The notes under the pieces are model-generated. The model saw only the letters and a list, made by a program, of their open reading frames with translations. It had not been told where the DNA came from and made no database searches. Positions 5,859 through 19,920 of a stretch of DNA of 22,576 nt are shown here, one piece after another. This DNA comes from a virus. The stretch is taken from positions 1-22,576 of IMG/VR virus record IMGVR_UViG_3300022745_000147; one strand, 5' to 3'. A program made the translations under genes and the position numbers. Position 1 is the stretch's first letter; the number at the start of each line of letters is the position of its first letter.

Positions 5859-8800
5859 TCAATCCTCCAAAACTGCTGTCATTCCACAACGGCAATTGCT
5901 AGTATATACCCCGTTGCAGTTGTAGATACCGCTACTCGTTTGGAGATCGTAGACATGGCCAGAATAATTGAACCCATCGACATCGACGACTTGATTCAAC
6001 GCCACAAGGCCGGAGAATCGGTTAAGCAAGCCGCTAATCGTCTCGGTGTCAGCCGCCGCACCATTTGCGATAGGTTCCAGAAGGCAAGTTTCGCTTGGCG
6101 TAATCGAAGTGAATCCATGTTCACACGCATGAGCTTTTCCACCGCCGATCAACGCAAGGCTTGGAGCAAGGCCGCCCATGATGCCGTGAGAGGCAAGCGA
6201 CAATCCCACTTGCATCGCGTCAAGATCGCTCAAACCATCGAGCTTAAGGCTGTCCCATGCGGCACAGAGCGGGAGTTGATGGTTATGCTTGAGGGTCTCG
6301 GTTTCGTGTGCGTACCGCAGAAGGCCGTCGGTCCATACAACATCGACATCGCCCTTACAGAACAATCCATCGCCGTGGAGGTGTTCGGGGGAAACTGGCA
6401 CGCCACGGGACACCACGCTGCGCGACATGATAAGCGAGTTAAATACCTCATCGACAACGGTTGGGCGGTCGTAATCGTTTGGGTTACCCCGATCAAAGGT
6501 GCCCATTTGACCATCGACGCCGCCAAGTACATACGAACCTTTGCCGAGCAACTTCGCCGCGATGAATCCTTGCGGGGTAAGGAAACGATGATTCTCGGTA
6601 ACGGAGACAACTGCCCCCGATGCAAATCGTACCTTAATAGCCCGGCCTGAGTAATTGGCTCGCATTGCGGCAATCACATCGCGGGCAATAACCTTGGTGC
6701 CGGGGAGCAAGCAATGCGGATGCCCCGGCGGGGTGTTGATCGCGGAATAGTTGACCTTGAACACGCCCCCATCCGGCAACGGAATCACCGCGCCAAGGGG
6801 GACGAACGATTGCCCCAACGGGATGCCGTCCGGGTGCATCTTGGCAATCTGACCACACACCGGGCAGCCGCCCGCCGCCAATTGCCATTTCTTCGCCTTC
6901 ACCACGCCCGACTCCGCCCACGCCGTTTCGTTGCCGGCACTATACGCCCGTGCCGATTCGGTGCGGGCAATCATCTCGGAACGGTAGCCGTCAAACTCGT
7001 CGTAAAGCTCATTTACACGCACCGCAAGCCGTGCCGGAGGTTCGCCCGCGTCCAGACCTTCAGCCAGCGTGTCGCTCAATTGCTGGGCCGTGTAGCCGTT
7101 AACCTCGCCAGCAAGCCGGATCGTGTACCCGCGAACAAACTCCGCCACTTTCGGGTTGCTCACGTTGAAGGTATCGGCGGGGAGGCTAATCGCAGCCATC
7201 GCCGCACCGCCACCGTTGACCAATTGGGCGGTGATAAACGGCTGGATGGCTTCAGCAATCGCACCGTCGTATTCACGGATGATGCTAATCATCTTCGCCA
7301 GGTCCAGACCGCCCGCCGCCTTTTGACCGGACAGGACCGCCACCACATCGCGGCGTTGCAGGGCGAAAACCGCATTGAGCTTGTTTGTCATGCGGCGGAT
7401 AACCTTTTCGGACTCGCCTTCGCGTTCCGTGTCGTCGGCGTTGCCTTTGGTTAGACAGGTGTGCCCGTGGGCAGAAAGCTGAACGATTGTTTTTTCGTCT
7501 CCTTCACGGTGGAGTTGACTACGCGGATATGACTTGTCCGCTGTTCCATCGGTGCCCCCAGAACTTGCGTCGTCATCGGTCCCGGTGTTGTTGTCTGCAT
7601 TGTCAGTACCTCCACCGTTTGCATCTCGATTGCCACCCCCGTTATCACTATCGTCCGGTCGTCCAGTTCCACCGTTACCCTGACCATCCTGACCTCCAAT
7701 CGAAAACCCACCCATGGAAAGCGGTTCGCCTACTTTCTCAATGGGAGTTAATCCAGACGGAACCAACAGCTTATCGGCGTTCTCTTCGTCAATCGGGTCA
7801 TCACCCAGCTTCGCCCGCGCCTCATTCCGCGTCCAATACCCATTCTGCAAGGCCGCAACAATGTCTTGCCGCACTTCGTCACGGTTTTCGGGTACGGGGT
7901 CGTCGTAGCACAAGAAAGCGTCCTCACCCAGCCCGAACGCGGGGAGGATGAAGTGGTTAAGGAACTCTTCATCCATCCGGCAATAGGGAAGGATCGTATT
8001 TTCACGCCATGATGCAAACCCGACCTGTGCCGATGCAAGGTTGGGGTCATTCGCTTTCAGCATCGACACGGGAACACCGAAAACCGCCGCATGTTCTTCA
8101 ATGATAATCTCCCGGTCCCCCTGTTCCGTGGGCATCCAGTTCAACGGCACAACGGACGTATCCCCGGTCAGGAACACGGGCGAGCCTTGCCGGAACGTAC
8201 CACGGAACAGACGAGCCCATTCCTCCTGCAACTCTTTCATCTGGTTGATATTGGTCACATTCGATGCCGACTTCGTGATAACGGCAAGGTCGGGACGGCT
8301 CAGGTTGTCATACCGGCTCTGATCCGTCTCCCGTTGAGCGATGGTGATTTTCTGGGCATCGTAATCGGCTTCGAGCGGTCCCAGCCCATACATCATGTCC
8401 TTCGGGTTGGGAAACGTCTGCTGGAATACCTCGTCTTTCGGGTAGTACTTCATCTGAGTCGCGATGATGCCGTATTGGTATCCCGCAATCATGTCGCCTT
8501 CGGATGGGGCGGCCGGCACGATCTTCACATACTGGGACGGCATCAACCACAACTCTTTGATGCGGCTCATGCTGTCGCCACCGGATCGAAGCGACTCAAC
8601 CACGGGATGAATATAGGTGTTACCCGTCAACGCTCCCATGATGTGACGCATGCAGGAGAACTCAAAGCCCCGCGTTGACGGATTGGGATTGCTCAACAGT
8701 TGCGTGATCGGGTGCCGTTCCATGACCTCTTCAAACTCGCCGCCCCATTCGGTTGCTTTCTGAATCACACCGCTAGAGGGTGCGGTACGCTTCTCGCCAA

Positions 8801-9083
8801 GCATGTACCGATACCGGCCCGGCGTTGCCTTGCGAACGTTGCGAGTCGTATACAGCTTCGTTCCCGACTTCTTGCGGGTGTACAGTCGCAACGGGGTCGC
8901 TGCAATGGCCTTGGCGTTCATCATGACCGCCGCATAGATCCATCCGCGAAATTGATTCACCGCCGTCAGGTAGTTAAACGGGCGTTCCTTCGGGCGTTTG
9001 GTGCCCTGCTCAATCACGTTGACAGACGAGCTTAGGAACTTGTCCGGCGAAGTCTGCGCTTTGATTACCCAGCTATTAGCCAT
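5859..9083 (-). CDS. Portal-MuF fusion protein interrupted by an intein
   Basis: A 1074-codon frame holding three parts. Residues 1-440 are a phage portal of the HK97 type: FRGWIYAAVMMNAKAIAATPLRLY, then HPITQLLSNPNP, and the late segment EEHAAVFGVPVSMLK. Residues 455-530 are a Gly/Asp/Asn-rich linker. Residues 560-790 plus 1064-1074 are a MuF (SPP1 gp7-like) minor head domain: RSEMIARTESARAYSAGN (701-718), CPVC (740-743), FKVNYSAINTPPGHPH, and after the intein CRCGM, which restore the family motif HPxCRC. The intein spans residues 791-1063. Excised, the mature protein would be about 801 residues. The product sits at the capsid vertex and probably delivers the MuF part inside the head. Start ATG overlaps the preceding gene by eight bases. 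Function depends on splicing, since the insertion splits the conserved His/Cys cluster. Confidence 0.88.
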   Translation of the reverse strand: MANSWVIKAQTSPDKFLSSSVNVIEQGTKRPKERPFNYLTAVNQFRGWIYAAVMMNAKAIAATPLRLYTRKKSGTKLYTTRNVRKATPGRYRYMLGEKRTAPSSGVIQKATEWGGEFEEVMERHPITQLLSNPNPSTRGFEFSCMRHIMGALTGNTYIHPVVESLRSGGDSMSRIKELWLMPSQYVKIVPAAPSEGDMIAGYQYGIIATQMKYYPKDEVFQQTFPNPKDMMYGLGPLEADYDAQKITIAQRETDQSRYDNLSRPDLAVITKSASNVTNINQMKELQEEWARLFRGTFRQGSPVFLTGDTSVVPLNWMPTEQGDREIIIEEHAAVFGVPVSMLKANDPNLASAQVGFASWRENTILPYCRMDEEFLNHFILPAFGLGEDAFLCYDDPVPENRDEVRQDIVAALQNGYWTRNEARAKLGDDPIDEENADKLLVPSGLTPIEKVGEPLSMGGFSIGGQDGQGNGGTGRPDDSDNGGGNRDANGGGTDNADNNTGTDDDASSGGTDGTADKSYPRSQLHREGDEKTIVQLSAHGHTCLTKGNADDTEREGESEKVIRRMTNKLNAVFALQRRDVVAVLSGQKAAGGLDLAKMISIIREYDGAIAEAIQPFITAQLVNGGGAAMAAISLPADTFNVSNPKVAEFVRGYTIRLAGEVNGYTAQQLSDTLAEGLDAGEPPARLAVRVNELYDEFDGYRSEMIARTESARAYSAGNETAWAESGVVKAKKWQLAAGGCPVCGQIAKMHPDGIPLGQSFVPLGAVIPLPDGGVFKVNYSAINTPPGHPHCLLPGTKVIARDVIAAMRANYSGRAIKVRFASGAVVSVTENHRFLTPQGFIAAKLLGKGSYVLGGVDGQMGTFDRGNPNDYDRPTVVDEVFNSLIMSRSVVSRGVPVSPEHLHGDGLFCKGDVDVVWTDGLLRYAHETETLKHNHQLPLCAAWDSLKLDGLSDLDAMQVGLSLASHGIMGGLAPSLALIGGGKAHACEHGFTSITPSETCLLEPIANGAAADTETISGLLNRFSGLVALNQVVDVDGFNYSGHVYDLQTSSGIYNCNGVYTSNCRCGMTAVLED
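5895..6713 (-). mobile_element. Intein in the MuF domain, with antisense homing endonuclease
   Basis: Residues 791-1063 of the portal-MuF frame (273 aa). Block A is Cys791-LLPGTKVIA; block B is VVSVTENHRFLTPQGF with T829 and H832 as the T-x-x-H motif; block F/G is SGHVYDLQT (1041-1049) then GVYTSN ending in Asn1063, followed by Cys1064 as +1 residue. The host sequence on both sides closes to a normal HPHCRC. The penultimate residue is Ser, not the usual His. No LAGLIDADG or HNH motif is present in the intein frame itself. About 200 residues separate blocks B and F, more than a mini-intein needs, and that stretch is overlain by the plus-strand endonuclease gene. The central part includes SPEHLHGDG and KGDVDVV, which look ordered and, from memory, recur in MuF-located inteins. 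Confidence 0.88.
5955..6650 (+). CDS. Vsr-like (EDxHD-type) homing endonuclease, antisense within the intein
   Basis: A 231-residue protein coded opposite the intein. ATG at 5955 follows GGAG (5942-5945) with nine bases spacing. Residues 8-42 are a helix-turn-helix: DLIQRHKAGESVKQAANRL then GVSRRTICDRF. Residues 59-90 (FSTADQRKAWSKAAHDAVRG) resemble a NUMOD3-like DNA-binding module. Residues 103-180 are a Vsr/DUF559-type PD-(D/E)XK nuclease: TERELMVMLEGLGF (Glu105), YNIDIAL (Asp131), IAVEVFGGNWHA (Glu142, His149), ARHDKRVKYLIDNGW (Asp159), AVVIVWV. These positions fit the EDxHD catalytic set of Vsr-like homing enzymes such as I-Bth0305I. The C-terminus has CPRC (220-223). It probably cuts intein-less MuF alleles to spread the intein. 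No convincing promoter was seen. The whole gene lies inside the intein with 60 and 63 bases left at the two ends. Confidence 0.85.
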   Translation: MARIIEPIDIDDLIQRHKAGESVKQAANRLGVSRRTICDRFQKASFAWRNRSESMFTRMSFSTADQRKAWSKAAHDAVRGKRQSHLHRVKIAQTIELKAVPCGTERELMVMLEGLGFVCVPQKAVGPYNIDIALTEQSIAVEVFGGNWHATGHHAARHDKRVKYLIDNGWAVVIVWVTPIKGAHLTIDAAKYIRTFAEQLRRDESLRGKETMILGNGDNCPRCKSYLNSPA

Positions 9084-17576: not shown

Positions 17577-18458
17577 TTACGCCTTCGCCGGGAACATCGA
17601 CAACTGGCTTTCACCTGATTCATGAATAGCCCGCTGAAGGTTGCGAACGGCGGCGGCGTGATATTCTTGCTTGATCTCGCAACCGTAGAACAATCGCCCC
17701 AACTTTAACGCTACATACCCTTCCGAACCGATACCCGTAAACGGACTAAAAACAATCTCGCCGGGATTGCTGTAAAGCTTGATGAGCCGTTCAATTACGT
17801 CAAGCTGGAGCGGGCAAATGTGCTTCGTGTCGTCCTTACCACGGCCTTCGGAAACGTTCAGCGTATTCGTTTCCTTAATGTCACCCCAGCAACTTTCCGC
17901 CCATGAAATCCATTGGTTGCGGGTCACTTGGTTCGGGGTGTCGATTCGCACTTCATTATCGCCGGGTGCACGGAATTTGATGAGGTAATCGCCAAGGGTG
18001 CCGCGTTGTTTTGCTCGATCCGATTCAAGGCCGGAAAATTGCAGTTCTCGGGCTTTGGTTCGGATCGCCTGGGCCTGCGGGTTTTTCCGCACCAGCCAAT
18101 CGTACTCGTAGACCAGTCCAGCCCGCTCCCCGAGGCGGATGTTGAATCCCCTGAAGTCAAACAACCCTACGCCACCGGTACGCTTCATGCGGGGAAGCTG
18201 CATGACGTGGACAACAACAACGCGGCCCGGTTTGAGGATGCGGGCAAGTTGCCGGTAAAAGTATGAGAGGTGGATCTTGGCTTCACCTTTCATATCTTCT
18301 GAATTGCCGATGTCACACGATTCGGACGTGTACGCATAAAGTGCGGGAAACGGGGGAGAGAATACCGACATGTCCATTGACGCGGCGGGCATCGTTGACA
18401 TGTGGGTAATACAATCCTCAAGCTGGACGTGGTACGGGTTGGAATTATTTGGCATCAT
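17577..18458 (-). CDS. DNA methyltransferase, N6/N4 type (N4-cytosine-like)
   Basis: A 293-residue enzyme. Motif IV is SPPF (34-37), the S-P-P-x form usual for N4-cytosine methylases, close to the N-terminus; motif I is FSPFTGIGSEG (237-247) near the C-terminus, with YGCEI (258-262) as the following acidic strand. The order catalytic motif then AdoMet motif is that of the beta class. Residues 64-110 hold LSYFYRQLARILKPGRVVVV, the helix-strand after motif IV, and 125-185 may be target recognition. I start at ATG 18458 (ATG 18455 also possible), seven bases after AGAGGA; the longer frame to 18488 lacks a ribosome site. No cognate restriction enzyme is seen; it probably protects phage DNA. It overlaps the helicase gene by 14 bases. 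Confidence 0.85.
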   Translation of the reverse strand: MMPNNSNPYHVQLEDCITHMSTMPAASMDMSVFSPPFPALYAYTSESCDIGNSEDMKGEAKIHLSYFYRQLARILKPGRVVVVHVMQLPRMKRTGGVGLFDFRGFNIRLGERAGLVYEYDWLVRKNPQAQAIRTKARELQFSGLESDRAKQRGTLGDYLIKFRAPGDNEVRIDTPNQVTRNQWISWAESCWGDIKETNTLNVSEGRGKDDTKHICPLQLDVIERLIKLYSNPGEIVFSPFTGIGSEGYVALKLGRLFYGCEIKQEYHAAAVRNLQRAIHESGESQLSMFPAKA

Positions 18459-19920
18459 GGAAAATCCTCTCTTGTTCTTCGGTGTCATGTTGTACGCGTT
18501 TCGCTTTGGTAAGCACAGTTTCGATCATTGGGCGTTCGATGTCAGTTACGGGGATATGGACGTTGAGCGGTCGAGTGGAGCCGTAGCGGTTCGACCGTTT
18601 GACCGCCTGATAAAACTCCTCGTAAGAATCCTGTAAGCCGCTGAAAACTTGGCGGGTTGCAATCTGGAGATTCAAACCAAAGCCCATGATTTTCGGCTTT
18701 GAAATCAAAACCTTACGCTTGCCCGATTTGAATTCGTTAATCAATTCGACGCGGGATTCATAGGGAGTATCGCCAGAAATGTTTGCGGCGTGTGGAAAAG
18801 TGGCGGCGATGATGTCCTGTTCGGTGTTGTACTTGCACCAGATGATCGTTGATTCATCCGGCCATGATTCCACCAATTGCTTGATGTAAGCGGGCTTTTC
18901 CGTATCAACCCGAACGCCCTTGTAACATCCCTTGGCAATCTGAGACAGAACGGACCTGGAAGTAATGCCGCCGATATTGTTGGCGAAGAGAGTACCTGTT
19001 TTTGTGAATGCGAGTTCAGTCTGTTCCAGCGTCAACGATACGTCATGAATATGGACATGAATGGGTGGAACGGTGGCGGTATTGTCTTTCCATCCATAGG
19101 TAGCGGGATTGGTTAGGAAGATAGACCAGTGGGAAAGTGCCCGGTAGAACGGTTCAAGGGCATGAGGCTTCAATTCCCATCGTTCGCCAGTTTCTCCACG
19201 GTTCACAAAAAACCGGGCAAGGAAGCTGTTGACAGTGGGGAAGTGGTCAAGGAAGACGGCATGATTCGCGTATTCGATGCGGTCATTAGGGGCAGGCGTC
19301 CCCGTGAGGGCAAGTTTCCACGGCAATCCTTTCCCAAGTTCAATGATCTTCATGCCCCATTTTCCGTAATGGGACTTGAGCATGGATGATTCATCGCAGA
19401 TAAGACCCGAAAGACGACCGGGCTTAATCTCATCCGTGAGCGATTCGTAATTGGTGATGCCGATGGATTCGGTGCCTGACGCAAGCCAATCGTTTAATTC
19501 ATTAGCCCGGATCTGTCGGACGGGAAGCGAATCCCCATAAAACCGCTTCACTTCGGCAAGGGTTTGTTCGATGACCATGAGAGGAGAAAGGATGAGAATA
19601 CAACGCCCGGCGGGGATGTTTTGGGATGCATGGCGAGCAAACTCGCAAAGGATGGCAGTTTTCCCCAGTCCGCAATCAATGAACGCGGCGTATTTCCGTT
19701 TGGTGATGGCGGATCGGGAAATGTCGGCCTGGTAATCGAATAGGTAATCGGCGGGGGTGTATTCGGTGATGCGTTCGGGAACAGTATCAACTCCAACGGC
19801 GGCGGCATATTCATCGGGGAAAATAGCTGTTCGCCCGCAGAATCGAAATTTAGGCAGAGACTTGATGCGGAGGAATTTGCAGTAATCGTCAACGCGATCA
19901 AGGTTAAGGGTAATTCTCAT
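18445..19920 (-). CDS. SNF2-like superfamily II helicase/ATPase
   Basis: A 491-residue protein. Motif I is DCGLGKT (82-88), motif II CDESS (175-179, DES in place of DEAH), motif III ALTGTPAPND (204-213), motif V-like KIMGFGLNLQ (410-419), and motif VI QAVKRSNRYGSTRPL (438-452), with the two arginines expected. This set and order fits the SNF2/phage helicase group. It should move on double-stranded DNA; phage members serve replication, recombination or DNA modification. It is paired with a methyltransferase gene, a common phage couple. GGAG lies five bases before the ATG. Residues 1-60 have no motif and may bind DNA or a partner. Confidence 0.85.
   Translation of the reverse strand: MRITLNLDRVDDYCKFLRIKSLPKFRFCGRTAIFPDEYAAAVGVDTVPERITEYTPADYLFDYQADISRSAITKRKYAAFIDCGLGKTAILCEFARHASQNIPAGRCILILSPLMVIEQTLAEVKRFYGDSLPVRQIRANELNDWLASGTESIGITNYESLTDEIKPGRLSGLICDESSMLKSHYGKWGMKIIELGKGLPWKLALTGTPAPNDRIEYANHAVFLDHFPTVNSFLARFFVNRGETGERWELKPHALEPFYRALSHWSIFLTNPATYGWKDNTATVPPIHVHIHDVSLTLEQTELAFTKTGTLFANNIGGITSRSVLSQIAKGCYKGVRVDTEKPAYIKQLVESWPDESTIIWCKYNTEQDIIAATFPHAANISGDTPYESRVELINEFKSGKRKVLISKPKIMGFGLNLQIATRQVFSGLQDSYEEFYQAVKRSNRYGSTRPLNVHIPVTDIERPMIETVLTKAKRVQHDTEEQERIFHDAK

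Follow-up and report, generated by a model that had tools for sequence, protein, structure and literature searches.

How can one short stretch of phage DNA carry both an intein and a nuclease of the homing type when the two appear to occupy the same base pairs on opposite strands? The question is raised by positions 5895-6713 of the window, which is the whole stretch of DNA analysed here (22,576 nucleotides, IMG/VR record IMGVR_UViG_3300022745_000147). A preliminary description, made without database searches, had read a full-length intein frame in a MuF protein on the minus strand and a nuclease gene with its own ribosome site on the plus strand. Both frames were re-read, compared separately with profiles and structures, and followed through their relatives.

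Organization of the locus

The features of the locus, with positions in the window, are as follows.

5859-9083, minus strand: portal-MuF precursor ORF, 1074 aa, interrupted by the intein (portal at residues 119-427, MuF at residues 667-737)
6714-9083, minus strand: N-extein, residues 1-790, ending in TPPGHPH (family site HPN^C)
5895-6713, minus strand: intein, 273 aa, Cys1 to Asn273, an 819-bp insert (residues 791-1063 of the precursor)
5859-5894, minus strand: C-extein CRCGMTAVLED and stop, starting with Cys+1, from the reading of the ORF
6588-6599, minus strand: intein block B, TENH, residues 39-42, opposite the C-terminal tail of the nuclease
5940-5957, minus strand: intein block F, HVYDLQ, residues 253-258, whose reverse complement is the putative ribosome site and start codon of the nuclease
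6060-6326, minus strand: intein residues 130-218, a low-confidence spacer opposite the nuclease, mostly with pLDDT <50 in the structure model
5942-5945, plus strand: Shine-Dalgarno-like GGAG, 9 nt before the nuclease ATG
5955-6650, plus strand: antisense-nested predicted homing endonuclease gene, 231 aa and stop (ATG at 5955, stop at 6648-6650)
5979-6092, plus strand: nuclease helix-turn-helix, about residues 9-46
6249-6617, plus strand: nuclease Vsr/EDxHD-type fold, about residues 99-221, with conserved E105, D131, E142, H149 and R161

The precursor is a single continuous ORF, and the intein is not split between separate genes; the nuclease is encoded on the opposite strand and so does not lie in the reading frame of the intein. 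The two reading frames share a codon register, position 1 lying opposite position 3. On re-reading, the intein residues first described (Cys791, T829-H832, GHVYDL, Asn1063 and Cys1064) were found where that description had put them, the nuclease gene was found to lie wholly inside the intein, leaving 60 and 63 bases at the ends, and its ribosome site could be identified with the GGAG listed above. The separate profile searches of the two frames that had been proposed as a check detected both the intein and the nuclease domains. Elsewhere in the window (17577-19920), adjacent genes for a DNA methylase (N6_N4_Mtase) and a SNF2/ResIII-type helicase form an overlapping pair.

The minus-strand frame

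The precursor matches Pfam/NCBIfam profiles for the portal protein (6e-31) and Phage_Mu_F (3e-4). The window intein alone matches the Intein_splicing profile at 2.5e-4 and by itself falls under Pfam's gathering cut-off; 60 of 66 family members match this profile, the best at 6e-14. The motif set of class 1 inteins (Cys1, block B TxxH, a C-terminal Asn and Cys+1) is met. Across the family, C1, H42 and N273 are invariant and T39 and N41 nearly so, and the ends (HPN^C...N^CRC) are conserved together with blocks B, F and G; GHVYDLQ occupies intein residues 252-258. At the penultimate position of the intein, the window and many relatives have Ser in place of His. In the structure model, confident Hint parts are found at residues 1-65 and 237-273 (pLDDT mostly >90), and comparison with the Mtu RecA intein gives a match probability of 1.00, so that the Hint fold is met. 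As judged from these sequence features and the model, the minus strand of 5895-6713 is a complete intein of class-1 type, whose protein splicing is inferred only. Between the Hint parts, a VPVxxEDFHGDG motif (window 6330-6401, intein residues 105-128) is conserved beyond the demands of the nuclease strand VAVEV(F) encoded opposite it.

The plus-strand frame

The nuclease matches the profiles MTES_1575 (3e-7), HTH and Vsr (6e-4), and its best match among phage profiles is a homing endonuclease family. Its structure model (mean pLDDT 92.5) comprises seven helices, including the helix-turn-helix, followed by a mixed nuclease core. The best Foldseek matches are I-Bth0305I (probability 1.00) and Vsr; in VIA-align, the model aligns with Vsr over 116 residues (Z 11.4, 2.7 A) and with I-Bth0305I (PDB 3R3P) over 95 residues (Z 9.9, 3.2 A). 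E105, D131, E142, H149 and R161 are conserved, a statement made without a residue-by-residue match to 3R3P. Of the three parts initially read in the 231-aa protein, the Vsr-like nuclease and an attached DNA-binding domain, the N-terminal helix-turn-helix, are thus supported, whereas the NUMOD-like part (E=0.26 only) is not, the N-terminus being the helix-turn-helix.

Distribution and joint conservation

Among annotated phages, tblastn matched the intein in 94 records and the nuclease in 130, many of these matches being in the same place on opposite strands; the main hosts of the matched phages are Salmonella, Pseudomonas, Gordonia, Klebsiella and Vibrio. The nested layout was found in annotated phages of these five genera and of Mycobacterium, Edwardsiella, Pantoea and others, and in 17 of the 18 annotated phage loci read in both frames, the copy in Rhodococcus phage REQ3 being reduced. 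In REQ3 (L061 949-2727), the MuF intein-like insert starts with Ala, not Cys (HPN^AVLEG), and the antisense nuclease is shortened and lacks the HTH; this insert is perhaps a decaying copy or one of a different class. A direct search of IMG/VR with the window intein alone gave no matches, and the nuclease is the better probe. IMG/VR and bacterial genomes supplied further matches, and one of these searches counted 458 candidate relatives. The tested set consists of 311 loci fetched for a relative of the nuclease; they hold 183 distinct nuclease cores and give 166 clusters at 70% identity (91 at 50%).

The antisense frame in register with the nuclease forms an open MuF intein frame in 309 of the 311 loci, always in the same codon register, and neither of the other two antisense frames is open at any locus. 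In the two remaining loci, a free-standing nuclease adjoins an intein-less MuF gene. A closed frame in five further loci (L009, L034, L041, L044 and L142) was dismissed as an artefact of stop-to-stop queries extending upstream of the nuclease. Homologues keep both frames, and neither observation that was to have refuted the preliminary description was made. Inteins of this type without an antisense nuclease were sought with an intein-frame pattern and with a pattern of the N-terminal splicing block, and the nuclease was present in 80/80 loci in each case; the former pattern is biased, since it lies opposite the catalytic strand of the nuclease, and the latter is less so. No form of the nested intein lacking the endonuclease was thus found among these 160 intein-pattern loci, which are partly overlapping sets. 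Nor has conservation of the splicing blocks been lost in relatives, in which the splicing residues are conserved. The antisense overlap of intein and nuclease is not due to chance, and the nested pair is a widespread family, present in hundreds of phage sequences, including phages that have long been in GenBank.

Where the host protein was examined by profile, it is a minor capsid protein of the MuF, SPP1 gp7 or Phage_min_cap2 type, and the usual insertion site is the HPN^CRC motif. In Kagunavirus KMB36 (L060 1-3390), the same nested element occupies a second MuF site, TSTT^CRARDG. A Scytonema MAG (L070 1618-4407) has two inteins in one MuF ORF: upstream, at KRT^CPYC, a short one that is Hint-only, and, at HPS^CRC, one of the nested-nuclease type.

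A shared start signal

The codons of HVYDLQ, CAT-GTN-TAY-GAY-CTC-CAA, read in reverse complement as TTG-GAG-RTC-RTA-NAC-ATG, which has the form of a ribosome site and a start codon. Codon choice in this block is unusual in the 93 members compared: the block-F Leu codon is CTC in 68/79 (86%), against 29% of other Leu codons, and the block-F His codon is CAT in 60/66, against 51% elsewhere. A Shine-Dalgarno-like motif is found at the right distance in 68 of the 93 members, where 23 would be expected. For the 26 members without a start codon opposite the block-F His, an ATG or GTG lies 1-5 codons downstream in 21. At the other end, the stop codon of the nuclease lies opposite one of the first 30 intein residues in 86/93 members, so that the nuclease gene is contained in the insert. 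The splicing motif HVYDLQ is thus predicted to double as the Shine-Dalgarno sequence and start codon of the nuclease, whose expression is inferred. A scan of the plus strand for sigma-70-type promoters returned one site, as many as expected by chance, and no convincing promoter.

Selection on both frames

Since each frame constrains the other, synonymous codons were shuffled in one frame, which gives the identity expected in the other from constraint alone. The sample comprised 90 aligned members, none more than 70% identical to another, and pairs of 15-42% identity were used. In the intein frame, the observed identity of 0.256 exceeds the 0.192 expected (z 65); this difference is greatest at residues 22-75, around splicing block B (0.379 vs 0.193), moderate at residues 111-150 and close to nil at residues 151-225. 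Identity in the nuclease frame is 0.350 against 0.184 expected (z 177), and the excess is strong in every zone. The same shuffling on the MuF extein, which has nothing encoded opposite, gave no signal (z -0.5). Related sequences enter these z values as if they were independent, and the values are to be taken as large rather than exact. In the same 90 members, the codon usage of each member taken separately predicts that 481 of the 3236 Leu and Ser codons of the nuclease frame would create a stop in the intein, and none was seen; this sample had been pre-selected as open, and the count of 309/311 open frames is therefore the less biased measure. The intein and nuclease frames are each shown to be conserved beyond what the other imposes.

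Mobility and origin

With the Jerseyvirus MuF gene and its insert as the query, 349 phage records were matched, of which 58 contain at least 80% of the query; among the matches listed, most of the others consist of the two flanks without the 816-bp insert. The two empty alleles that were read have the exact junction PPAHPN^CRS. The expectation that intein-less relatives would lack both frames is therefore borne out in the Jerseyviruses, where the two are absent as one unit, and these phages are polymorphic for the whole 816 bp. This precise empty allele belongs to a homologue and has not been shown for the window's own phage. In the Salmonella phages vB_StyS-sam and dunkel, the inserts are 100.0% identical, with flanks 70.1% identical over 600 bp upstream and 96.6% identical over 290 bp downstream; within what such sequence identities can indicate, the intact unit is shown to have been transferred recently between phages. 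Six occupied copies were compared, and in each of them both frames stay open as far as the same nuclease stop. A presence/absence difference caused by an intein has also been reported for a minor head protein of phages (PMC7468147); this intein may or may not belong to the same family.

In Acinetobacter phage P1068 (L063 1309-2202) and in an IMG/VR locus (L045 3947-4678), a nuclease relative and an intein-less MuF gene are arranged tail to tail. Such free-standing relatives fit either ancestors, from which an antisense endonuclease joined an intein, or descendants after loss of the intein, and the direction is undecided. The single codon register of all nested copies suggests a single origin.

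Proposed function and alternatives

We consider it very probable that the element is a mobile intein with an EDxHD/Vsr-type homing endonuclease overprinted in antisense, its splicing, its cutting and the expression of the nuclease from an antisense transcript all being inferences. On the minus strand, the intein would be translated within the portal-MuF head protein and would remove itself by class-1 splicing, through Cys1, the block B His, Asn273 and Cys+1, so that ...GHPH is ligated to CRC.... The plus strand would supply an endonuclease with an HTH and a Vsr fold, started from the ribosome site and ATG that are reverse-complementary to block F; its expected target would be the HPN^CRC codons of MuF alleles that lack the intein, and repair of the cut allele would copy the whole unit.

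That the plus-strand ORF is an accident, a mere by-product opposite a real intein, is hardly credible. The in-register antisense phase does make long open frames easier, and 15 of 88 MuF extein stretches (of at most 160 codons) are stop-free by chance, but the nuclease frame is conserved in every zone far beyond the demands of the intein, has conserved residues, a high-confidence Vsr-type fold and an optimised start signal, and exists free-standing in L045 and L063; a chance antisense ORF is ruled out by the codon shuffling with its MuF-extein control and by the absent stop codons. If, conversely, the nuclease were the sole functional gene and the intein frame had decayed or were no more than a tolerated read-through, without splicing, weak conservation and low model confidence would be explained at residues 151-225, which are hardly conserved beyond nuclease demands. 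This possibility is very unlikely given that the frame of MuF, a virion head gene, is open in 309/311 loci, that conservation extends to Cys1, block B, Asn and Cys+1, and that residues 22-75 are conserved far above expectation in an intein whose Hint parts are predicted with high confidence.

It is also possible that the unit is built as proposed and that its nuclease now serves mainly to cut the MuF genes of co-infecting relatives, rather than to spread the intein. Nucleases of mobile introns are used for such interference in other phages, and the nuclease is intact in 80/80 loci found by the intein-frame pattern, as would be expected with selection on the phage as well. However, occupied and empty alleles coexist in close relatives and the insert moves between backgrounds, as plain homing predicts, and a role mainly in interference appears improbable.

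For the antisense-overprinted mobile intein, a tentative interpretation, on which we would not quite count, is that overprinting makes the element persist. The decay phase of the homing cycle would be largely blocked, because indels in the common DNA that kill the endonuclease also kill the essential head protein, and HVYDLQ would have been co-opted as a start signal, which would fix the two genes as a pair in phages from several bacterial phyla. The element is relevant to the question of why homing endonucleases decay once they are fixed. It would represent a third way of building a mobile intein and a large natural example of two proteins, both conserved and structured, whose codons lie opposite one another on the two strands, with a splicing motif that also acts as a translation start signal. 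It has remained unannotated for years in phages in GenBank, a gap probably due to the suppression of long antisense overlaps by gene callers. Jerseyvirus and Gordonia phages are ready systems for testing antisense endonuclease homing.

Comparison with known systems

Ordinary mobile inteins (PI-SceI, Mtu RecA, VMA) have an in-frame endonuclease domain of the LAGLIDADG type. Like them, the present element is a contiguous intein, mobile between alleles, in which the endonuclease fills the slot between blocks B and F; here, in contrast, the endonuclease is encoded on the other strand as a separate product, has a Vsr/EDxHD fold, and has a tail that overlaps block B. The catalytic fold is shared with I-Bth0305I, an EDxHD homing endonuclease (PDB 3R3P), which is encoded in a group I intron, neither in an intein nor antisense to a protein. 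The fractured genes of Dassa et al. (2009) reportedly combine split inteins with a Vsr-like (EDxHD) endonuclease, and the general nuclease fold, the association with inteins and the phage setting are the same; here, however, the intein is contiguous and acts in cis, and the nuclease shares the intein's DNA instead of lying between half-genes.

The element had first been put forward as a candidate for an undescribed system. No description of an antisense-nested intein endonuclease was found in the literature searched, which left most subscription papers outside its scope, and the antisense-overprinted layout is apparently undescribed; nor is it an isolated case, the family being widespread. The MuF intein was noticed in papers on Jerseyvirus UPWr_S and Kagunavirus vKMB36, both of which carry the nested element, and the passages found in these papers mention no antisense nuclease (PMC8425127, PMC11162368). 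A comparable arrangement is that of nuclear group I introns with antisense homing endonuclease genes, such as Didymium squamulosum L2066, which likewise combine a splicing element with a mobility nuclease on the opposite strand; there, however, the gene lies in a peripheral insertion of the ribozyme (P9.2) and has no codons in common with a second protein (PMC9548176).
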